Assembly (NCBI GenBank): GCA_034717495.1
Contig: JAYELL010000001.1
Coordinates: 221,081-285,080 of the forward strand
Length of the DNA stretch: 64,000 bases
Source of the DNA: Chloroflexota bacterium
GTDB lineage: Bacteria; Chloroflexota; Anaerolineae; JAAEKA01
Reading direction: 5' to 3'
Below are positions 38,844 to 57,019 of the stretch, one piece after another. The number at the start of each line of letters is the position of its first letter. Positions within the stretch are counted from its first letter, which is position 1. The position numbers and the translations under genes were made by a program. The notes under the pieces are model-generated. The model worked only from the letters and a program-made list of their open reading frames with translations. It did no database searches and was not told the origin of the DNA.

Positions 38844-39170
38844 GTGAACGATGATAAGATCTTGACCTGTCGCGAGTGCGGCACAAGGTTCATCTGGACC
38901 GCCTTTCAGCAGCGTTCAGCGACAGGGAAACCGGACTATTGTCCCGGATGTATCCAGTTGCTGCCCGGTTCCGGGCGACAACGGGGCACCATCAAGTTCT
39001 TCAACGCACGCCGAGGCTGGGGCTTTATCATAGGCACCGGCGGCGGGCAAGTCTTTTTCCATCGGAGTGGGTTGCAGGAAGGGAACAAACCAGGGGAAGG
39101 CGACCTGGTGGAATTCGCTGTCGAAGCAACCTCGCGAGGGCCCCAGGCAACCGGGATCATATCCCTCTAA
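38844..39170 (+). CDS. Zinc-ribbon plus cold-shock-domain protein
   Basis: 108 aa from GTG 38844, with GGAGGG about 9 nt ahead. Residues 8-37 are a CxxC ... CxxC zinc ribbon (LTCRECGTRFIWT, YCPGCIQ). Residues 45-108 are a cold-shock OB-fold: RGTIKFFNARRGWGFI (RNP1-like) and GGQVFFHRSGL (RNP2-like), then GDLVEF. Such proteins bind single-stranded RNA or DNA as chaperones. The added zinc ribbon is of the kind seen in some Chloroflexota CspA-like proteins. Its 3' end overlaps the convergent glycosyltransferase gene by 14 bp. Confidence 0.87.
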   Translation: MNDDKILTCRECGTRFIWTAFQQRSATGKPDYCPGCIQLLPGSGRQRGTIKFFNARRGWGFIIGTGGGQVFFHRSGLQEGNKPGEGDLVEFAVEATSRGPQATGIISL

Positions 39171-40317
39171 GCGGTTCTTCAGTCGCCAACCCGGACAGCA
39201 TGTCGTCATACTGTGGAGCCATGTGTCGCCAGTCGAATGACTCGACAACGGGCCGCAGACTTTGCTGCCGCACCATGTCGATTTTGCTGATCGCCCGGTG
39301 TAGCAAGGCCACCAGGTCTTCAGGTGACTCGTAGAGACATCGACTGTGATATTCGGAGGGGATCAGGTTGGGGTAGACCAGTCGATTAGGCAGTATCGGC
39401 CAGGTGTCGCAATACATGGCTTCGGCGATGCTCACGCCGAAAAACTCGTGGCGTGCGCAGGAGACGACCAGATCGGCCTTCCACAGCCATTCCCCGTACG
39501 CCAATCGATCTTTCGCATAGCCAAACTGAACAATGCGGTGGGGCAGACGTTCCCTGGCGCTCTCGAACTCGGTCGGAGTCAATCGAAAGCTTTCACCCAA
39601 TAAAGCGACCCTGTAATCCGCTCCTGTCAACTCCAGGGCGTCGAGCGCATCGAAGAAGCTGTTGGGACCTTTATCGTGTTCCCAGCGGTGATTCCAGAGA
39701 AGCAGGGCAGGCCCGGCGTAAGGGATTGCCGGCCGGGCTTCGTCGAGGGAACCTAGTGCCAGGCCGACCGGCAGGACCTGGCTGCGCTTCTCTATCAGTC
39801 TGACGGTATCGGTTTCATTGAAATCGGGGAACTGTTTAAGGAATCGGGGCAGTCCGTCCAGGAAACTATCCCGGTTGAACCTGGAGTTCCACAGGATGCG
39901 ATCGGCTGCCAGCGCGCTGGTGTAGTTGATGAACGGGTAATGCATATCGGTGCCGGCTGACTGCGTTCGACGCCGGCGGGAGTCGTCCCAGCTTTGGTCG
40001 ACAGGATTGGCTGGATAGGCCAACTGGTTCTCGTGAAAGTAAAGGGCCACGGGGACGCCGCCGGTGACGTCCCGTGAGAGCGCCAGGAACGTGGCCAGGT
40101 CCAGCATGTCGGATGCCAGAATCACGTTGGGCCTCAGCCGGCTTTCCTTCAGCCGTCGGGCCAGCGTAACTGCAGCGCCGTGCATTCGCCACTTCCAGAA
40201 ACGGCCTGGCAGGGTCAAGAGAGTGACATCATGCCGGCTGTGCCGCGCCAAACCCTCGGCCCAGGTAGCGTGGGAGCCGGTGAAGTAGGGTTCCAACAAC
40301 AGGACCTTTTGAGGCAT
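39157..40317 (-). CDS. Glycosyltransferase, tRNA-queuosine mannosyltransferase-like (DUF3524)
   Basis: 386 aa. The N-terminal half has the DUF3524/QTMAN pattern: LLLEPYFTGSHATWAEGLA, LTLPGRFWKWRMHGAA, ALYFHENQLAYP and NYTSALAADRILWNSRFN. The C-terminal half is a GT4-like domain: LLWNHRWEHDKGP, LVVSCARHEFFGVSIAEAMYC. Human GTDC1, of the same family, mannosylates queuosine in tRNA-Asp; bacterial members are thought to do the same or a related job. The tRNA-Asp gene is in this window, but distance makes that no evidence. Cytoplasmic, no signal peptide. Confidence 0.88.
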   Translation of the reverse strand: MPQKVLLLEPYFTGSHATWAEGLARHSRHDVTLLTLPGRFWKWRMHGAAVTLARRLKESRLRPNVILASDMLDLATFLALSRDVTGGVPVALYFHENQLAYPANPVDQSWDDSRRRRTQSAGTDMHYPFINYTSALAADRILWNSRFNRDSFLDGLPRFLKQFPDFNETDTVRLIEKRSQVLPVGLALGSLDEARPAIPYAGPALLLWNHRWEHDKGPNSFFDALDALELTGADYRVALLGESFRLTPTEFESARERLPHRIVQFGYAKDRLAYGEWLWKADLVVSCARHEFFGVSIAEAMYCDTWPILPNRLVYPNLIPSEYHSRCLYESPEDLVALLHRAISKIDMVRQQSLRPVVESFDWRHMAPQYDDMLSGLATEEPLRGI

Positions 40318-40489: not shown

Positions 40490-42172
40490 TCAGGGAAGCG
40501 AACCGTCGTGATTGGTCACCCCGGATCCGAGAACTGGATCTGGACTACCGTAGTGGCTGCCCGATTCTGCCAGTTCTTGCCCAACATCGGCTGGGTTGAC
40601 GCCCTCCTGCAGCAGTCGAGCCGCCTGGCCAGACACGATAGGAGCCGAGAAGGAACTGCCAACCCAAAATCGCAAGCCACCTCCATTCTCGCTTACCGTG
40701 CTTATCACACCGAAAGGACATTGGGTATCGGCAGGATCACAATCAGCCGATCGCGGCAGGCAGGACTCGCTGGGCGTCAATTGACCATCCCCTCCGGGCG
40801 CAGCGACATCACCCCTGTTGGAGTAACAGGATGGCTTGGTGTAGATATTGCTGGCCGAAACACCCACCACATAGGGGAAATCAGCCGGCAAATCGGGGCT
40901 GGCAGCTTCGCCATCTCCCTCGATCTCAGCTGAACTGTTTCCGGCGGCTGCAACCACCACGATGTCATTGTTGTAGACCCGCGAGACAGCCTCTTCCAAG
41001 GAAACCACCTCGGCAGGTACCCGGTATTTTTCGACATTCCGGGGCTGGTGAACGCCCAGGCTCAGGTTGGCGACCGCTCTACCCTGTCCCTTGTTCTCAA
41101 CCACCGAGTCGACAAAGCCGTTGAGTGCAACGATCAACGAAAAAAGATCGCCACACCCATACTTGTTCAGGACCGGATAAAGATGGATGTCTGTGACGGG
41201 AGCTACGGCGTTGACCAATCCTGCAACCATTGTGCCGTGCTCTGATGCATCTCCACCGGGGCTGCCGGGAGCGGGCTCGAGTCGATTTAGAATCGGAACG
41301 TCGTGCACCGTAAGTGCGAACGAAGCGGAATCTGCCTTCACTCTCGTTTGACCAGCCGACGAAAAGGGCGAGGTGTCGAAGACGCCAACGCGAATAGCAG
41401 CGAGCTCAGGCTGGCGCCACTCCTGGCTGTAGACTCTGCCGGCCCTGGCGGTTTTGAAGGCCCACTGGTTCCAGAAGGTGGTCTCGTCGCTCACCGATCC
41501 CGGGCCTCCCTGGCCACTGCCTTCCATCTCGAAGGGGCTGCCTTCCATTTCGAAAGGACTGCCTTCCATTTCGAATGGGTTACCGCAGGGACTGGCCCCT
41601 TGAGGCCCCACCAGGTAGTTTGGATCCGCAAACACCACACTTTGTCCCAGCTCGTTGATCCTTTTTACGACAACTTCCGGTTGCTCGCTCTCACTGTCGC
41701 CGTCGATGAAGTACAGCCGGGTTTCTACCTTGTCCTGGATATTGCTCCATGGGGGCGGTTCCGCCCACCCGCTGCGTTCACCTGGACGCATGGTGTCTCT
41801 GCGCACATACGATTTTGGGCTCGGGTAATACAGATAGCATACGGCCATCGGCTGAAGACTCACATCAAGCTCGGCGATCAGCCTGTCTATCTCGGCTCGC
41901 GGCCCGCTGACGATGACCTGCTGGTTTACATAGTGGCCTCGACTTGTGGTCTGCCCGCCGCTTTGCCCAGCTTTTAACGTGATGCAACGTTCGCCGTCGG
42001 GATCGAATGGTGGCAGCTCTCCTGGAGGGATCGTTGGCCTTTCTGGTTTTTCAGTTGGGGACGGGGGCGTCGGTTGATCAGGTTGTGGATATTGACATCC
42101 AGCGACGACGATGCTCAATACAAGCAGGCCCAGGCAAAGAGCTAACACGAATCTTCCAGGTTTGGCCATCAT
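40490..42172 (-). CDS. Subtilisin-like (S8) serine protease lipoprotein
   Basis: 560 aa from ATG 42172 (GGAGG 8 nt ahead). N-terminal lipobox LSIVVAGC, so it is probably lipid-anchored outside the membrane, then a Pro-rich linker. Residues about 75-190 look like an I9-type pro-domain (RAEIDRLIAEL ... VVFADPNYLVG). An odd spacer has three copies of SPFEMEG/NPFEMEG. The catalytic triad is Asp in VGVFDTSPF, His in SEHGTMVAGLV, Ser in WVGSSFSAPIVSG (GSS instead of the usual GTS); oxyanion Asn is in AAAGNSSAE. It sits last in a leftward block after sigma factor, anti-sigma-like and TPR-CHAT genes, 168 bp from the CHAT gene. Confidence 0.92.
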   Translation of the reverse strand: MMAKPGRFVLALCLGLLVLSIVVAGCQYPQPDQPTPPSPTEKPERPTIPPGELPPFDPDGERCITLKAGQSGGQTTSRGHYVNQQVIVSGPRAEIDRLIAELDVSLQPMAVCYLYYPSPKSYVRRDTMRPGERSGWAEPPPWSNIQDKVETRLYFIDGDSESEQPEVVVKRINELGQSVVFADPNYLVGPQGASPCGNPFEMEGSPFEMEGSPFEMEGSGQGGPGSVSDETTFWNQWAFKTARAGRVYSQEWRQPELAAIRVGVFDTSPFSSAGQTRVKADSASFALTVHDVPILNRLEPAPGSPGGDASEHGTMVAGLVNAVAPVTDIHLYPVLNKYGCGDLFSLIVALNGFVDSVVENKGQGRAVANLSLGVHQPRNVEKYRVPAEVVSLEEAVSRVYNNDIVVVAAAGNSSAEIEGDGEAASPDLPADFPYVVGVSASNIYTKPSCYSNRGDVAAPGGDGQLTPSESCLPRSADCDPADTQCPFGVISTVSENGGGLRFWVGSSFSAPIVSGQAARLLQEGVNPADVGQELAESGSHYGSPDPVLGSGVTNHDGSLP

Positions 42173-42340
42173 GATTCTTTCCTCCATAAGCTCGGTTCGA
42201 TCAAGGAAACTGTGTGAAAAGTCTTGTCCATGGCTTGTTGGGTCTTCAAAGTGTGCTTTGCTGCATCAGGCGGGTTTCCAGGCCTGAATTGCAGCTTTCG
42301 AGCGGCCTGGGGAGACCGTTGACCCTTTTTCAAACAGCTA

Positions 42341-45220
42341 CTAAAGGGCTCCCGGGTCGCCCACCAGAAAAAATGGTGCCCAGAAATAAGGATGGGCAAC
42401 GATGCCGTCTTCTACCGAGGCAAGTTGCTGGTTGAAAAACTCGCGCTGGGCCTGGCGCAGCGCAGCGCCCTTGGCGAAGCCGTCAGCGAGTTTGCCGTAG
42501 AAGTTCTCCATGAACCGCGCTGTGGCACTATCCTCCACGGTCCACAAGGTGAGAAGTAGCGAGGCCGCGCCTGCGTACAAAAAGGCGCGCATCAATCCGA
42601 GAAGTTCGTCTCCCCCGGCGATTGCGCTGCGTCCGGTCTGGCAGGCGCTGAGCGTCACCAGCGACGCTTGCACCCGCTGGTTGAAAATATCAAGCGTTGT
42701 CAACCAGCTATCTTCAAGAGCGATTCCGGAAAAGAGGGGGTTGTCCGGCCTGAAATCGCCATGGGCTGCGATATGCACAATCTGGCATTCCCTCATGGCG
42801 TCCTTCAATTTACTTACCAGGGCCTGGTCTTCCAGCAATAGCTGGCCGTCGAATTGTGCCGCCACCGATCGGGCTTCAGCCAGGGTATGGGGCAGTCTGC
42901 CGTGCAACGAATGGGCGCAGGCCACCGTCGGCCCCGGCACTTTCTGGCTCCGAGAACTGTAGCGGAGGAGACTGGCCCCTGGGAGATAGCTGATCTCGTG
43001 ATTTTCGACCAGATAGGTTGTTCCGTCGAACAGGGCGTGAAAGGGCAGGTAGTGCAAAGGACCGTGGGGCACGATCACGTGGCGCGGGAAATCCTCGACA
43101 AGTGCCTGAATCGGGGCATACAACTGGTCGTGGGCGCGCTTCAGCAGGCCCTGGGCGTTCCTGGTGAGTTCACCGATTCGCGTCGAACCGCCGGCCAGCA
43201 CCGCGCCAAAGTTGAGCTGGAGCAGACGAAGCAGTTGCTGAATCTGGGCCGGTTTTACCCCAAGCCGGCGTGCCTCAACCGCATCCTGTGTCACCAGGAA
43301 GACCACCAACTCATTCTTCACAGAGAAGTATTCGACCAGAATCGTTTCAGCAGGCAGGAAGGGCTGGATGGGCTCGGCGCGTATCTGCCACAACGCCGCG
43401 TCGCGTGCGTAGTCAGCGTTGCGGATCAGCAGTTTGTGCCACAGGGAGGTAATTTGTTTTTCAAGTTCGAGAACATCCTGCTGCGAATCCTGCCATGTGT
43501 CCTCGCCACTGGATCCACCTCGAACGCCGATTTCGTTCTGCACCTGCCATTGCCGGACTATCAGGTCGCGCTTTTCTCGCAGCCGCTGCAATTCGGTGAT
43601 CAAGGCCGCATCGCCCGGATTTCTGGCCTCGATGCTGAGATCCAGCCGGAAGGCCAGCATATCGATCAATGCCCGGGACTTGGCGCGTTCCGCATATTCC
43701 AGGCTCAATTCGGGCTGCTGGTTCTCCAGGCCCAGATCAACCAGCTCTTCGTAGACCGCCTGCTTGTCTCCCTGGAAATCGGCCCGAAACTCGATCATGA
43801 TCCGACCTCGCAGCTGTTCCAACGCCGCAATCGCCTTCTTGTATTCGTCGATCGCGTCTTCCAGACGACCCTGTTTGGCTGCGGCCAGGCCCCTCAAGTG
43901 GTGGCCCTGGTATTGCAGAGCCGGAATATTGTTTTCCTCTCCGATCCTCAGAGATCGGTCAGCCAGGTCAAGGCCTTCCGCTATGCTGTCCTGTGCCAGC
44001 GCAGACCGGGCCGCGACCAACAGTCCATGCGCCTGCCGGACAGGATGGCCGGATGCCGCCAATACTGCCGCTGCATCAAGTGCCAGGGTTTGGCTGGTTT
44101 CATACTGCTTCATCTGTCGCAAGATGCTGGCGGTCTCGATATCAGTCAGTGCCGCCCAAACCTTGTTGTCGGAAGCTGCGAAGATATGCCGGGCCTCCTC
44201 CAGGGAGTCGAGGGCGTCGCCGAATCGCCCCAGGCCTGCATAGGCCAGTGCTTCATTGACAATGGCCTGTCCGACCTCCTTTGGCGCTCCCAGCCGGACG
44301 AACAGATCGCGCACCCGGAGGCAGCGATCCCGGACATCGGCATAGCGCCGGAGCTGAATAAGGCAGTTGCTGGCGAACAACTCAACCAGCATGGCATCGC
44401 GTTCCCGCCCGTCGGCCAGAAAGACTCCCGATACGTGGTCCAGATGCTCAAGGGCTTCGTTATAGCGCCCCAGAACGAAAAAGGTCATGGCCAGATTCTG
44501 TCGGGCACGGGCAGCGGCCACCGGCTGATGAAGCTCGTCGAGGCGCTGCCAGGCGAGGGTGCTCGCGTCGATGGCAGCATCGAATTGGCCCAGGTTTCGC
44601 AGGACATGGGAGCGGTTGAGCTGTGTCCAGAGCCAGCCGGTTTCCCCCTGTTCTCCCATCTCCTGATAGAGCGAGGCTGCTTGATCGAACTTTGCCAGGG
44701 CTTCCCGATCGGCTCCCTTGCGGGCGAAATTCACCGCCATGTTCATGGTCAATGAAGTCAAAGGAGTTAGCTGATTGTGGGCAACGAGGACAGTTTCCGC
44801 TTGATCAGCTTCCCTGGCGGCCTCCTCATAGCGACCAATACACCCCAGTGCAGCTACCTTGCCGATCGCTGAACGCGCTTCCTCCACTGGCATGTTGGCT
44901 TGCCGGTAAATGTCAGCAGCCTGATCATATAGCCCGATGGCCCGATGATAATCCCCCAATCCAAGAGCGTAAACATTTGCCTCGGCAAGCAGCCCCAGGG
45001 CCTGATCTGCCGGCTCCTCGTTTAATTCAGCCCAGGTATTGATCAACTCAACAGTGTCCAGTGATCGCTGAACGTTGGACCTCAACAGTCTGTCGGCCTC
45101 CGCCTTCAGGGCGCGGGAAATCTCGCCATCATCCTTGCCAGCATGGTCCTCGAGAAGGAGGCGCTGACTGGCAGAATCTGGCGCGGCAAGAAGCTGCTCG
45201 ACAAATTCCTCCGTAGCCAT
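42341..45220 (-). CDS. TPR-CHAT protein (caspase-like peptidase)
   Basis: 959 aa. Residues about 80-500 are helical TPR repeats (e.g. ALGLGDYHRAIGLYDQAADIY, LGRYNEALEHLDHV, GLGRFGDALDSLEEARHIF, KQGRLEDAIDEYKKAIAAL). A coiled-coil link (about 530-600) leads to a CHAT domain (about 690-955): FHALFDGTTYLVENHEISYLP, the His of HIAAHGDF near 821 and Cys of LSACQTG near 861, then FLYAGAASLLLTLW. CHAT domains are separase/caspase-like Cys proteases, cutting protein substrates when the TPR part senses a partner. No signal peptide, so cytoplasmic. It follows the anti-sigma-like gene by 24 bp. GTG 45223 is an alternative start. Confidence 0.93.
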   Translation of the reverse strand: MATEEFVEQLLAAPDSASQRLLLEDHAGKDDGEISRALKAEADRLLRSNVQRSLDTVELINTWAELNEEPADQALGLLAEANVYALGLGDYHRAIGLYDQAADIYRQANMPVEEARSAIGKVAALGCIGRYEEAAREADQAETVLVAHNQLTPLTSLTMNMAVNFARKGADREALAKFDQAASLYQEMGEQGETGWLWTQLNRSHVLRNLGQFDAAIDASTLAWQRLDELHQPVAAARARQNLAMTFFVLGRYNEALEHLDHVSGVFLADGRERDAMLVELFASNCLIQLRRYADVRDRCLRVRDLFVRLGAPKEVGQAIVNEALAYAGLGRFGDALDSLEEARHIFAASDNKVWAALTDIETASILRQMKQYETSQTLALDAAAVLAASGHPVRQAHGLLVAARSALAQDSIAEGLDLADRSLRIGEENNIPALQYQGHHLRGLAAAKQGRLEDAIDEYKKAIAALEQLRGRIMIEFRADFQGDKQAVYEELVDLGLENQQPELSLEYAERAKSRALIDMLAFRLDLSIEARNPGDAALITELQRLREKRDLIVRQWQVQNEIGVRGGSSGEDTWQDSQQDVLELEKQITSLWHKLLIRNADYARDAALWQIRAEPIQPFLPAETILVEYFSVKNELVVFLVTQDAVEARRLGVKPAQIQQLLRLLQLNFGAVLAGGSTRIGELTRNAQGLLKRAHDQLYAPIQALVEDFPRHVIVPHGPLHYLPFHALFDGTTYLVENHEISYLPGASLLRYSSRSQKVPGPTVACAHSLHGRLPHTLAEARSVAAQFDGQLLLEDQALVSKLKDAMRECQIVHIAAHGDFRPDNPLFSGIALEDSWLTTLDIFNQRVQASLVTLSACQTGRSAIAGGDELLGLMRAFLYAGAASLLLTLWTVEDSATARFMENFYGKLADGFAKGAALRQAQREFFNQQLASVEDGIVAHPYFWAPFFLVGDPGAL

Positions 45221-45244
45221 CACTCGTTGTTTTTTCGCAGCCGG

Positions 45245-45991
45245 TTAATCTTTCTCCAGTTCCAATTCCTGGATATGGACTTCCAGAGCAGGTGCGCTCA
45301 AAATGATGTCGTATTGAGCTGGTGATACGCTGGCAAAGAGGAAGTTTCCCAGGTCGTCCACGTTGGCCGCGGCGATCCACTGCCCCTCTTGCCAGAGATG
45401 CGCCTGGGTCTCGACGGGTTGGCCCAGGCCCGTTACCAGTCCGAGGACGTCCAGAGAGCCGGGCGACTCCCCACTGGCCTGAAGGTCAAGGACGATTTGC
45501 ATTTCACCGGTGACATCGTAGACCATGGGTGTATCCCCGGCACCGCGAACACCGGCGAAAGCAGGAGCGAATGCCGGACTTTGCAGTCCTTGCGAAAGGT
45601 TGCCGGCCAGTTTGGCGATCAATACCTGGACCCGTTCCTTGATCGGGCCAACGAAATCGCTTTGTTCCCGGGGTTCGGTGTCAATCAGGAATCGCTCAAG
45701 CTGGACGAGTTCGAGCGCACAGTGGGGGCAGGATGCGACATGCGTTGAGATTTCCGCGGCTTGATTCGCCGGCAGCAGGCTCGCGTGAAACTCGCCAAGT
45801 TCAATGGACGAGGGGCACTCGGCTCTGAATAGAATGCCTTCAAGATGCCGTTTTTCGATCGCAACGGCATTTGCCCGGTTGCGGCAATAATCGCATCGAG
45901 CCAGGTGCGAAATCACCTCCGGGCTTGTTTCACCATCTGCCCACATTAGCAGCATGGTGTCCTCAAGGGCTGGTGGAGAGATACAGTTCAT
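45245..45991 (-). CDS. Double zinc-finger anti-sigma-like protein
   Basis: 248 aa. Two ZAS-type H-x3-C-x2-C motifs: HLARCDYC near residue 29 and HVASCPHC near residue 84. ZAS domains clamp ECF sigma factors. No membrane helix is seen, unlike most anti-sigma factors, so it would be soluble. The last 100 residues are beta-rich (MQIVLDLQASGES, VHIQELELEKD) without a known family. It lies between the sigma-factor gene (53 bp) and the TPR-CHAT gene (24 bp). It may be the substrate that the CHAT protein cuts to free the sigma factor; this is inference. Confidence 0.82.
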   Translation of the reverse strand: MNCISPPALEDTMLLMWADGETSPEVISHLARCDYCRNRANAVAIEKRHLEGILFRAECPSSIELGEFHASLLPANQAAEISTHVASCPHCALELVQLERFLIDTEPREQSDFVGPIKERVQVLIAKLAGNLSQGLQSPAFAPAFAGVRGAGDTPMVYDVTGEMQIVLDLQASGESPGSLDVLGLVTGLGQPVETQAHLWQEGQWIAAANVDDLGNFLFASVSPAQYDIILSAPALEVHIQELELEKD

Positions 45992-46044
45992 AAAAAAACA
46001 CGCTCCAATTGGAACAGATAAGGATTCACCAGTTTAAACGAGAC

Positions 46045-46761
46045 CTAGCCAAAAGTTTCAGCATAGTCGAGCAGGATATCTCTCAACTCCTTGTCTCGTC
46101 GGAGCCTCGCCAGCACATTCTGTTTGATCCGGTAGATTTCCCGGGTGTCGTCGAACACCTGGCTGTAGCTTTGTTGCAGCTCGCGCGGTTTCATCGCCAG
46201 GACGAAACAGCCGTGTAGAACCAGCCGTTCTTTCTCGCTGGCCATGCGCTGCTCGAAAAGATGCCAGAACGATTTCTTCTGAGACTCGTAGACAGCGCTG
46301 TCCTCGACGCTTGGGCCTGGCCTTGGTTTGCCTGCAAGGGCCTCCTCCGGCTCAGCATCGACTGTTTCATGACGCCGCAATCTTGAATGATCAACTATGA
46401 CACTGTTCGTGCATAATTTCAGGTAGCGCAGCAGCGATGGAAGGTTGGGAAATCGCTCAAATTTCTCCGGCGTCACAGCTCTCCAGATTTTTTCGAACGA
46501 ACGATTGACGAAATACTGGATTTCCTCTCCTGTTCCCGGATAACTCGGGTGGCGTTCTACCCAACCCGCTACAAGAGGCTGGTATTGGCTGTAGAGACAG
46601 GAGTGGGCATGTTCATCGTGATGTAGAATGGCGCGCCGGAAAAGTTCGTAACAAAAAGCAGGATCGTAATCCTTCCTGTTGAAGAAATGGGTAGTTTCCT
46701 GGGCACACCGGTGTGCGATACCGGATAAATTGAGTGCTGCGAGGTCAACTCTGTCTGCCAT
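46045..46761 (-). CDS. ECF-type RNA polymerase sigma factor
   Basis: 238 aa. A region-2-like part (CYELFRRAILHHDEHAHSCLYSQYQPLV, EIQYFVNRSFEKIWRAV, LRYLKLCTNSVIVDHSRLRR) and a region-4-like part (SEKERLVLHGCFVLAMKPREL, YRIKQNVLARLRRD) match the sigma-70 layout with an acidic/Pro linker between. The divergence from standard ECFs is notable, and the helix-turn-helix is atypical. First gene of the sigma / zinc finger / CHAT / subtilisin-like block, with a good promoter 54 bp upstream. No clear Shine-Dalgarno sequence at ATG 46761. Confidence 0.8.
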   Translation of the reverse strand: MADRVDLAALNLSGIAHRCAQETTHFFNRKDYDPAFCYELFRRAILHHDEHAHSCLYSQYQPLVAGWVERHPSYPGTGEEIQYFVNRSFEKIWRAVTPEKFERFPNLPSLLRYLKLCTNSVIVDHSRLRRHETVDAEPEEALAGKPRPGPSVEDSAVYESQKKSFWHLFEQRMASEKERLVLHGCFVLAMKPRELQQSYSQVFDDTREIYRIKQNVLARLRRDKELRDILLDYAETFG

Positions 46762-46814: not shown

Positions 46815-46843
46815 ATTATACAATGACTGAAAAAAGATGCAAA
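46815..46843 (-). promoter_or_regulatory. Sigma-70 promoter of the sigma/CHAT block
   Basis: On the minus strand TTTGCA (46843-46838), 17-nt spacer, perfect TATAAT (46820-46815). The rest of the 304-bp divergent gap up to htrA shows no gene and no clear rightward promoter. Confidence 0.68.
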
Positions 46844-47065: not shown

Positions 47066-48409
47066 ATGGATCAGGTTCCAGGAAAGCGTTATGGTGGTTC
47101 AGTTGCAATCATTGCTTTGCTGATCGCTACGTTGATTGTCACAGTTGTTATGGCGATTCCAGCAATTGACGGTCTGCCCGCGCAGGCCAGCACGGTGAGC
47201 GATGTTTTCGTTCAGCAACCTCCGGTCCGGGCAGGCGTCTCCGCTGCGGCAACACGACCCGCAGACCAGACTCTGCCACCCGATCTGGCAGCAGCGCTGA
47301 CCTTGGTTGAAGCACAGGAACGAGTCCTGACAAATATCTATGAGACAGTCTTGCCTTCCGTGGTGCATATTCAGGTGCGACAGCGCATTGACAGGGAAAA
47401 TCTGGGCGGGTTCGCTGTCCCAGGCTTGCCATTCGGTGGACCCGATGACCCGGACACTCCCGGCGATGATTTCTTTCGGGGTGGCGAGGGTTCCGGTTTC
47501 GTCTGGGATGATGCGGGCCATATCGTCACCAACAATCACGTAGTCGAAAATGCGGTCGAAGTTCGTGTCTTCTTTTCCAATGGGTTTGAGGCAGAAGCCG
47601 AGGTTCTTGGCAAGGATGCCGATGCCGACCTGGCTGTAATTTCCATTGACGTCGATTCCGATCAATTGGTGCCCGTGGTTCTTGGAAACAGCGGCAACCT
47701 TCGGGTTGGACAATTGGCAGTAGCTATTGGCAACCCCTTTGGCCTCGAAAACACCATGACATTTGGGATCATCAGCGCACTGGGCCGAACGATCAACAGT
47801 GGCCGGACACCCTTTTCGATCCCGGAGGTGGTTCAGACCGATGCGCCTATCAATCCGGGCAACTCGGGTGGACCTCTGCTGGATCGATTTGGTCGGGTCA
47901 TCGGTATCAACACCCAGATCGTGAGCCGAAGTGGCAGCAATTCAGGCATCGGGTTTGCCGTGCCGATAGACATTGCTAAAAGGATCGTGCCTGAGTTGAT
48001 CGAGGATGGCGACTACGAGTATTCCTGGCTGGGGATCACCGGTCAGACCTTGCGATCAGAGGTCGTCGAGGCCAACGACCTTTCCCCGGACACTCGAGGC
48101 GCTCTGGTCGTAGCGCTTGCTGGTGGCGGCCCGGCAGACCAGGCTGGTCTCGTTGGCAGCCAGAACAGGCAAATCGAGGATGCATTGCCCTATCCAGTGG
48201 GTGGAGATGTGATCGTTGCGATTGCAGATCAGCCGGTCACGGGAATGGATGATCTGATCACCTACCTGGCCAGCCAGACCCAACCGGGCGACGTGGTGAC
48301 GCTGGAGGTGATCAGGGATGGAGAGACCATCTCGCTGGACGTGGAGCTGGGAGCTCGTCCCGGTGTCATGGAAGTTCGAAACCAGTTTCAGGATGACGGC
48401 GAGAAATAG
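47066..48409 (+). CDS. HtrA/DegP-type trypsin-like serine protease with PDZ
   Basis: 447 aa. Membrane anchor at residues 12-32 (VAIIALLIATLIVTVVMAI). Triad: His in IVTNNHVVENA, Asp in KDADADLAVISI, Ser in INPGNSGGPL. A single PDZ domain occupies about residues 330-435 (YSWLGITGQTL, GGDVIVAIADQPVTGMDDL). It degrades or refolds misfolded proteins outside the cytoplasmic membrane. AAAGGTG precedes the ATG. It is divergent from the sigma-factor block and its 3' end overlaps the convergent P-type ATPase gene by 22 bp. Confidence 0.95.
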   Translation: MDQVPGKRYGGSVAIIALLIATLIVTVVMAIPAIDGLPAQASTVSDVFVQQPPVRAGVSAAATRPADQTLPPDLAAALTLVEAQERVLTNIYETVLPSVVHIQVRQRIDRENLGGFAVPGLPFGGPDDPDTPGDDFFRGGEGSGFVWDDAGHIVTNNHVVENAVEVRVFFSNGFEAEAEVLGKDADADLAVISIDVDSDQLVPVVLGNSGNLRVGQLAVAIGNPFGLENTMTFGIISALGRTINSGRTPFSIPEVVQTDAPINPGNSGGPLLDRFGRVIGINTQIVSRSGSNSGIGFAVPIDIAKRIVPELIEDGDYEYSWLGITGQTLRSEVVEANDLSPDTRGALVVALAGGGPADQAGLVGSQNRQIEDALPYPVGGDVIVAIADQPVTGMDDLITYLASQTQPGDVVTLEVIRDGETISLDVELGARPGVMEVRNQFQDDGEK

Positions 48410-54493: not shown

Positions 54494-57019
54494 ATGGCAG
54501 ATATGAGTGCCCGTTTTGAGGCATATGTAGGTGAACTGGAAAGTGGCGCCAGCGTGGACGAATGTGTCTTCGCCGACGACGCCACGGACTCCAGTCTTGC
54601 CCCCTTGATTGAGCTGGTGGCGGCCCTGCGCGGGTTGGGCGGGCCAGTACCCGCGCGCGATCCCGAAACGCTGGACGTAGCCCGGACAAGCTTCCTTGAA
54701 CAAGTCACCCTGTTTGGTCAGCAGGTAAACCAGGAGTTGGAGGATGCCCTGGCGCAGGCCACCCTCATGTTAGGGGCCGGCGCCACCATCGATGAATGCA
54801 GTGATGCCTTTCCCGACCTGGCCGAGCAACTCGAACCGCTCCTGGTTACGGTGGACCAACTTCAAACCCTGAGCGACCCTGCGCCACTGCCGGATCCGGA
54901 CCAGGTAGCCTTTGAACGCAATCGTTTCCTGGCACGCGCTACGCTGTTGGGCCAGGCTCCGGCAACCAGCATCGACGACGCGCTGGACGCGAGTCTGGCC
55001 ATGATGGCATCGGGGGCAACGCTCGACCAGTGTATCGACAGGTTCCCCCACCATGCGGCGGAATTACGATCGCTTCTTGATACAGTGTTCGCCCTCGAAC
55101 CCGCTGCCGAACCGGTCCCGGAACGACAGCCCGCGGTAGTTTCAGCCCAGCGAGCGGCATTTCTGGCCGCAGCAGGCGAATATGCTGATGAACCAGGGCC
55201 ACTGCTTGCGTTCTGGTACGGTTTACTTGATGGCATCGAGTCTTTCTTTGTGCCGGGGGCAAGGCGATGGGCTGCTGTTGCGGCTGCCCTCCTGGTTGTG
55301 TTGGTTGGTTTGAGTGGGTTTTCCGTTCAGGTTGCCGCCTCTTCCTTGCCCGGAGATGCCCTTTATCCAGTCAAACTGGCGTCCGAACGTGTCCGTCTGG
55401 TTCTGACTACCGACGGCGGGCCCCGCGATATTTTAGCTGAACAGCTTGCGGGTCAGCGCCGGGTCGAAGCAGAAGCCATTTCCGGATTGGGGCGGGTTGC
55501 CCGGATGGTGATTCCGGGTGAGATAGAGCGCATCGAGGATGGAGTCTGGTGGCTTGCAGATCTTGCGGTCCCGGTCATGGTTTCGGGTGACACTATTGTT
55601 CTCGACGGTGTTCCCGAGCCGGGAAGTAAGGTTCTTATCGAGGCTGTTTCCGATAGCGGCGGCACGCTCCATGCCATTAACATCTGGATCCTGGAAGGCC
55701 CATCAGAGTCCTCTGTGGAGGCCGCTCCCCTGCCTGCGACTGCCACACCAACGCCGACAGCGACCTGGACATCGACGCCACTGCCAAGTGATACACCGAC
55801 GCATGAGCCGAGCAATACGCCGGTTTCGGCTGCCGTCCCGGTTCCGACCAGAACGCCGACGAGGACTCCAACCCGCACGCCGACACCATCGCCGACGCCG
55901 AGTCCCTCGCCGACCCCAACGGCGACGATTACGCCGACCCCGACCCCCACAACCCCGACTACTATAAACGTAGGCGGTGTGATTTTGGAGAAACACACCA
56001 ACTGGTGGCGTGTGGCCGACCATCGAGTTCTCCTGGATAGCGCCACCGTCATCGACGAAACCGTGGCGCCGGCTGAGGTGGGAGCGGATGTCAATGTGGA
56101 GGGCTTCCCGCAGCCCGGCGGCGAGATCCTCGCGACCCTCATTACCGTTGTCAGAGGGGCACCCGGACCGGAGATCAAGGAATTCACCGGTCGGATCAAC
56201 GCCATGAACGGTTCCAATTGGCAGATCGGCAGCACCTGGGTTGTGGTTACCGGCTCTACCGAGATCACCGGCGATCCGGAGATTGGGAAAGTTGCGTCGG
56301 TGCGGGCCGAGCGCGATCCGGGCGGACCATGGGAAGCGAAGTGGATCCATGTTCGGGAAACTGAGATTGTCTATATCGATGGGATCATCACCTCGATCAA
56401 CGGTGATACCTGGGTTGTAGGAGGCCAGACGATCCATGTGGATGGGTCTACTGATATTGCAGGTGATCCCGAGGTCGGACGTCGCGCCCAGGTTGAGGCT
56501 GAGGTTCGCCCCGAGGGATTGTACGCCCGCCGAATTCACGTCTTCGGTCCCACTGATACGCCAACCCATACGCCGACCTTTACACCGAGTCTCACGGCGA
56601 CCTTTACTCCGACGCCGACCGGTACACCCACAGTAACCATTACACCTTCGGATACTCCGACATTGGAGCCTACGGCAACAAATACGCCAACGGTCGAACC
56701 GACCAATACTTCGACTCCTGAACCCACGGAAACCCCGACGGTCAAGCCGACTGATACCGTGACACCCGAACCGACCAGTACGCCGACGCCTGAACCGACC
56801 GATACATCGACACCTGAACCGACCGATACGCCGACACCTGAACCGACCGATACGCCGACACCTGAACCGACCGATACATCGACACCTGAACCGACCGATA
56901 CATCGACACCTGAACCGACCAATACGCCGACAGAAGCGCCAACGGATACACCGACCCCCCGACCCTCGCCGACATCGACTGCAGTAATACCGATTCCGCT
57001 CACGCCGACGCCGGAGTAA
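54494..57019 (+). CDS. Anti-sigma-like membrane protein with DUF5667/DUF5666-type domains and TP stalks
   Basis: 841 aa. Residues 1-225 hold three degenerate repeats with a GA-(S/T)-x-D-x-C core followed by an acidic/helical stretch ([37 protein letters not shown]). One membrane helix lies at about 256-283. It is followed by [21 protein letters not shown], the DUF5667 signature. Three or four small beta domains ([49 protein letters not shown]) resemble DUF5666. Two Thr/Pro-rich stalks (about 404-490 and 682-835) separate and end them. The cytoplasmic part probably holds the ECF sigma encoded 15 bp upstream, and the outer part senses the envelope. Confidence 0.82.
56789..56932. repeat. 24-bp tandem repeat (6 units) coding for PEPTDTxT
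   Basis: Six consecutive 24-bp units beginning at 56789, coding for PEPTDT(S/P)T, in the C-terminal stalk of the anti-sigma-like protein. Units differ only at the S/P codon and one D/N site. Confidence 0.92.

Follow-up and report, generated by a model that had tools for sequence, protein, structure and literature searches.

A divergent sigma factor (SIG), a soluble candidate anti-sigma factor (ZAS) and a TPR-CHAT protease are encoded in one order and on one strand at 44 distinct loci of Chloroflexota. Comparison of these loci makes it fairly probable that CHAT cuts ZAS and frees SIG. Directly established are the parts, their intact active sites, the gene order, natural SIG-ZAS fusions, the promoter, and the tie between the C-terminal domain of ZAS and CHAT. 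The SIG-ZAS-CHAT trio is the core of the system, and an S8 subtilisin-like protease is an accessory, optional part.

The operon and its products

The window is the whole stretch of DNA that was analysed (64,000 nucleotides). It carries the following features:

46815..46843, minus strand: housekeeping (sigma-A type) promoter TTTGCA-17-TATAAT, about 53 nt 5' of the SIG start codon
46045..46761, minus strand: SIG, divergent two-domain (sigma2-sigma4) ECF-type sigma factor, 238 aa (ORF, profile, AlphaFold2 fold)
45245..45991, minus strand: ZAS, soluble candidate anti-sigma factor, 248 aa, with two zinc fingers, linker and C-terminal beta-sandwich
45884..45907, minus strand: ZAS finger 1, His29-x3-Cys33-x2-Cys36, degenerate in all fused relatives
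45719..45742, minus strand: ZAS finger 2, His84-x3-Cys88-x2-Cys91, kept in 61/61 with letters
45545..45547, minus strand: Arg149, in the linker 5' of the ZAS beta-sandwich, putative cleavage site
45257..45526, minus strand: ZAS C-terminal beta-sandwich (CarboxypepD_reg / FN3-like), in every CHAT-linked ZAS
42341..45223, minus strand: TPR-CHAT protease, 960 aa, GTG start
43826..44980, minus strand: TPR region, residues about 82-466, presumed sensor/regulator
42356..43147, minus strand: CHAT domain, residues 693-956
42761..42763, minus strand: catalytic His821 (HIAAHG), 33/33 cassette CHATs
42641..42643, minus strand: catalytic Cys861 (SACQTG), 33/33 cassette CHATs
40490..42187, minus strand: S8 subtilisin-like protease ORF, 565 aa

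The earlier note reported four consecutive leftward genes with a promoter at their front. All four ORFs were found where it had placed them, on one strand and closely spaced (gaps of 53, 21 and 153 nt between SIG, ZAS, CHAT and S8). The promoter was located as well; it scores 10/12, and a single such match is not above chance alone. Similar promoters (TTGACA-16/17-TAACAT, TACCAT or TATACT) lie at the same place before SIG in four relatives (L136, L137, L139, L104), and a sigma-A-type promoter precedes SIG in every testable near relative. A promoter of this type suggests that the operon is expressed constantly and controlled post-translationally rather than by ECF autoregulation. An HtrA/DegP-like trypsin-PDZ protease gene is divergent from SIG (window 47066-48409); it was ruled out as a DegS-like partner because it is not a conserved SIG neighbour in relatives. 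Just 3' of S8 is a tRNA-queuosine mannosyltransferase-like gene (QTMAN, window 39157-40317), and at the end of a DUF5666/DUF5667 gene a 24-nt unit is repeated in tandem at least nine times (window 56682-57006).

No Pfam or NCBIfam sigma model matched SIG, and the Sigma70_r2 Pfam model matches just 2 of 18 SIG homologues. When the SIG family profile was compared with PDB, RpoE (2q1z_A) was matched at E 4e-4. Nearly all 50 top PDB matches of the AlphaFold2 model (pLDDT 89) were RNA polymerase sigma subunits or RNA polymerase models, with no E-value below 0.001 and with TM-scores kept low by a different arrangement of the two domains. The protein consists of sigma2 and sigma4 domains only, in a sigma fold, which places it in the ECF/sigma-70 family. 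Judged by its family profile and predicted fold, SIG is a sigma factor despite lacking family-model matches, in agreement with its earlier description as an atypical ECF sigma factor. A second, distant SIG paralogue occurs in the genome of the window (L160:6550-8180, contig C23), followed by a 182-aa zinc-finger protein with no CHAT nearby.

ZAS matches zf-HC2 at E 3e-4, slightly under the model cut-off, and its two HxxxCxxC motifs are those of class I zinc-finger anti-sigma (ZAS) proteins. Anti-sigma factors at the membrane are usually released by regulated intramembrane proteolysis, which is unlikely here because ZAS has no transmembrane helix (maximum KD19 1.09). The protein is as the earlier note described it, a soluble double ZAS protein; the C-terminal beta-sandwich had been missed. 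CarboxypepD_reg was found in 12 of 21 ZAS homologues. A cis-linked SIG-ZAS AlphaFold2 model, built on the L098 sequence with stop codons read as Ser, had good local fold and a pTM of 0.48, which speaks neither for nor against the complex; its fold search returned mostly FN3/Ig-like matches to the C-terminal domain, and an anti-sigma complex was not among the matches. Arg149 is the best-conserved linker residue and is a candidate cleavage site or a structural residue. It was ruled out as proof of a CHAT-specific cleavage site, since CHAT-free ZAS also have it (9/11, versus 41/43 CHAT-linked ZAS; Fisher 0.053).

Another zinc-finger architecture was found in the genome of the window (L158:407-5258, contig C57) and at L159:1495-6558, where the gene after that of an ECF sigma factor encodes some 1400 aa, in which a zinc-finger anti-sigma domain at the N-terminus is combined with transmembrane segments and with an alpha-2-macroglobulin part that has a protease bait region. 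These proteins were ruled out as CHAT proteins, being alpha-2-macroglobulins; possibly they are anti-sigma factors that sense proteases.

The TPR-CHAT protein matches PF12770 at E 9e-63, plus TPR models. As the earlier note had it, this is a caspase-like CHAT protein with TPR and catalytic Cys861; the residue pairs with His821 in an intact, invariant dyad. The remaining CHAT proteins of the genome are distant, and none is beside a sigma gene of the SIG family. S8 matches PF00082 at E 3e-19, and its Asp271/His317/Ser512 triad is intact and kept in 9/9 cassette S8 proteins. Its likely start is at 42172, after GGAGG and 15 nt downstream of the ORF start, and it has the lipobox VAGC with Cys31 at 42095-42097. 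The lipoprotein signal is present on S8 in the window, L136 and L137, and the homologues of L055, L068, L069 and L072 begin without it. Catalytic and prodomain-like regions align across loci, so the S8 proteins are one family that differs in location: a surface lipoprotein in the family of the window (f1) and probably cytoplasmic elsewhere. The earlier claim that S8 acts outside therefore holds for the family of the window, but it does not extend to the system as a whole, since at least four loci elsewhere lack the signal. Three near-identical 21-nt repeats that encode FEMEGSP (window 41516-41584) lie in S8 between its prodomain-like region and its catalytic region.

Distribution, fusions and the ZAS C-terminal domain

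SIG homologues were found in 60 of 301 Chloroflexota genomes. The 44 trio loci are related, so these counts overstate the number of independent events; in the genome of the window, a co-directional CHAT gene would be expected by chance to start within the next 5 kb in about 0.35% of cases. S8 is the fourth gene in nine of the 44 (the window, L055, L062, L064, L068, L069, L072, L136 and L138), spanning six families (f1, f71, f49, f59, f45 and f29), so the four-gene order for which the earlier note proposed a search does recur in several Chloroflexota families, contrary to the absence that the note had named as refuting its model. L137, where S8 is cut by the contig end, is additional to these nine. 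ZAS is present in five of six genomes of the window's own family; all four genes occur in the genome of the window, L136 and L138, three genes plus the S8 start in L137, and three genes followed by the contig end in L139. Most trios are without S8, including those kept in Ktedonobacterales, and a clostripain-type (C11) peptidase is in place of S8 in two loci. Named carriers of the trio include Ktedonobacter racemifer, K. robiniae, Thermogemmatispora, Dictyobacter, Tengunoibacter, Thermosporothrix, Ktedonosporobacter and others.

A scan of the wider collection was made with a 6-row SIG alignment as query, the 18-SIG alignment being too diverse. Based on two short patterns and not exhaustive, it found no locus outside Chloroflexota except L098, from a MAG labelled Proteobacteria whose contig agrees in length and gene coordinates with that of a Chloroflexota genome (G193). 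Some loci have other neighbours. In an Anaerolineae MAG, a 706-aa protein without a Pfam match lies between ZAS and CHAT (L104:5702-7822). The SIG family is also found beside very large C11 peptidases with NHL beta-propellers (L096:2977-7736; L097:2947-8029; L182:7284-11660), and loci with large clostripain (C11) peptidases occur with or without CHAT.

SIG and ZAS form one polypeptide in eight loci (families f24 and f34). Single-chain SIG-ZAS proteins were seen in L087 and L088, and six more intact fusions were found when family f24 was searched with the L088 chain as query. TPR-CHAT is directly 3' of the fusion in 8/8; in L087 and L182 the gene after it encodes a clostripain-family (C11) peptidase that carries NHL repeats. 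In all eight fusions the ligands of finger 1 are lost and finger 2 is intact. An ATG is kept at the former ZAS start in 8/8 fusion genes, some with a good Shine-Dalgarno sequence, so free ZAS may also be made from them; even then, obtaining free SIG would need cutting. The presence of TPR-CHAT beside every fusion fits proteolytic cleavage, since a fused sigma factor is hardly freed otherwise. The tree, which includes two of the fusions, groups them with L096/L097 in a single clade (100/98 support), indicating that fusion was one or few events.

CHAT linkage follows the C-terminal domain of ZAS. Among 71 distinct ZAS, CHAT is adjacent to 44 of the 56 with this domain versus none of the 15 without it (Fisher 1.9e-8, which overstates the evidence because 13 of the 15 short ZAS share one clade, apart from the fusion clade). 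Twelve SIG-ZAS pairs have the domain without an adjacent CHAT, so it is not exclusive to CHAT. Both kinds of ZAS occur in one genome in G118 (L040/L181) and G134 (L044/L088). In the short ZAS clade, vWA and SurE genes come next in several loci; L038:2923-6567 and other f24 loci, for example, have SIG, a short ZAS without the C-terminal domain, then a vWA protein and SurE.

Release of the sigma factor

In the mechanism that we favor, SIG and ZAS would be made constitutively from the housekeeping promoter, and ZAS would keep SIG inactive through its zinc-finger half, as expected from its family. The TPR part of TPR-CHAT may receive a signal, after which the CHAT domain would recognise the C-terminal beta-sandwich of ZAS and cut ZAS within the flexible linker or close to it. 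What is left of ZAS would be unstable or lose its grip, and SIG would switch on its target genes. Where present, S8 would be a co-transcribed second protease.

An alternative that we consider unlikely is that ZAS itself is the sensor, a thiol/zinc or metal switch of the RsrA or ChrR kind that releases SIG upon oxidation or loss of zinc, with TPR-CHAT and S8 merely co-transcribed effectors. The two HxxxCxxC fingers agree with such a switch, ChrR and RsrA are among the closest anti-sigma profiles, and SIG-ZAS pairs without CHAT exist; however, the system persists where finger 1 has lost its ligands (the fusions) or is missing (L056/L060), a thiol switch alone hardly releases a fused anti-sigma factor, and CHAT tracks the C-terminal domain, not the fingers. 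This dependence on the anti-sigma domain also counts against simple co-expression, in which the sigma pair just controls the operon and TPR-CHAT acts on other substrates such as an S8 zymogen or a cell-death target. That S8 has an N-terminal prodomain-like region, appears cytoplasmic outside f1 and can be replaced by a C11 peptidase would suit co-expression, but most trios have no S8 to act on and the promoter is of the housekeeping type, and we regard it as improbable, more so than a ZAS switch.

Least probable, and very doubtful, is that proteolysis holds the sigma factor off through degradation of SIG itself by CHAT or S8. This follows the proposal made for ECF54 from its CHAT, subtilase and carboxypeptidase-domain neighbours, as described in PMC8999054; an anti-sigma candidate is present here, contrary to the premise of that proposal, and fused SIG-ZAS retains CHAT. 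A role in defence was ruled out, with no PADLOC match beyond weak domain matches.

Relation to known systems

In type III-E CRISPR systems, the C-terminal domain of Csx30 is the binding site for Csx29, whose cut in a flexible loop of Csx30 relieves inhibition of CASP-sigma (PMC10028731). The type III-E CASP/Craspase systems likewise combine TPR-CHAT with a neighbouring ECF sigma factor and with an inhibitor of the latter that has a separate C-terminal domain. CHAT matches Craspase structures in PDB (8d9f, 7x8a and 7y9x, E about 1e-8 to 1e-5), the NCBIfam Csx29 model matches at E 2e-19 over the CHAT part, and the linkage of CHAT to the C-terminal domain of ZAS resembles the recognition of Csx30 by Csx29. 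In contrast to type III-E, there is no Cas7-11, crRNA or array beside the locus, the operon is chromosomal and vertically kept, and the inhibitor is a zinc-finger protein. No array-like repeats were found in window positions 30000-58000, no Cas7-11-like single-chain effector in the genome (95.6% complete), and no Csx30 chain in PDB with the ZAS profile. The RAMP genes of this genome are three separate ORFs (279-394 aa) on another contig (G000 contig C81, L166-L168) and belong to a type III CRISPR effector of the ordinary kind, encoded by several genes. These results agree with the parallel to type III-E without CRISPR drawn in the earlier note: the four-gene cassette would work like a CASP module but is not type III-E CRISPR.

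ECF54, as described in PMC8999054, is the closest prior art. According to that description (citing Casas-Pastor 2021), carboxypeptidase, subtilase and CHAT genes are conserved beside it, an anti-sigma factor is absent, and proteolytic regulation was proposed; its model protein is SFT86700.1 from Geodermatophilus, an actinobacterium. The two systems, compared by description, share CHAT, subtilase and a carboxypeptidase-type domain near an ECF sigma factor. They differ in that SIG has ZAS next to it, a zinc-finger anti-sigma protein whose C-terminal half is formed by the carboxypeptidase-regulatory-like domain. By analogy of composition with this description, the ECF54 "carboxypeptidase" may correspond to the C-terminal domain of ZAS. 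The same description qualifies the remark in the earlier note on two protease classes in one sigma operon, which is unusual but has a precedent in ECF54. Searches of plasmid records with SIG, S8 and CHAT gave no actinobacterial counterpart of the cassette, and sigma matches were weak.

Other systems share single elements. CalpL cuts the anti-sigma factor CalpT (PMC11417357). In CalpL/CalpT/CalpS, as proposed here, a protease cuts a soluble anti-sigma factor and frees an ECF sigma factor, but the protease is a Lon-SAVED protein switched by cyclic oligoadenylate and has no CHAT (PMC11417357). IutY (ECF243) has sigma and anti-sigma in one proteolytically activated chain, comparable to the eight fusions; unlike them it is membrane-bound and processed by Prc and RseP (PMC8999054). 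In PDB 8rot/8rw5, a 991-aa "CHAT domain-containing protein", a zinc-finger-like segment and CHAT are in one chain; the match between the ZAS profile and residues 7-44 at its N-terminus is weak (E 0.27). No description of the Chloroflexota trio was found in the literature searched, with most subscription journals outside its reach.

To our knowledge, a CHAT protease cutting a sigma inhibitor has been shown so far solely in CRISPR systems, and we know of proteolytic control of soluble ECF anti-sigma factors mainly from CRISPR-linked systems. It is possible, although we hold it with less confidence than cleavage of ZAS itself, that the trio represents a CRISPR-free, phylum-wide class of caspase-like sigma switches in which a stand-alone TPR-CHAT cuts the C-terminal tether of a soluble zinc-finger anti-sigma factor, at some loci one that is fused to its sigma factor; such a class could be ancestor-like for the CRISPR-linked Csx29 arrangement, and the ECF54 "carboxypeptidase" could then be an overlooked anti-sigma factor. 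If cleavage of ZAS by CHAT is true, ECF54 would merit re-reading. What CHAT proteases do outside CRISPR is known only in small part, and the trio bears on this; its presence in culturable Ktedonobacter racemifer, Thermogemmatispora and Dictyobacter, together with the natural fusions, provides a small testable set.
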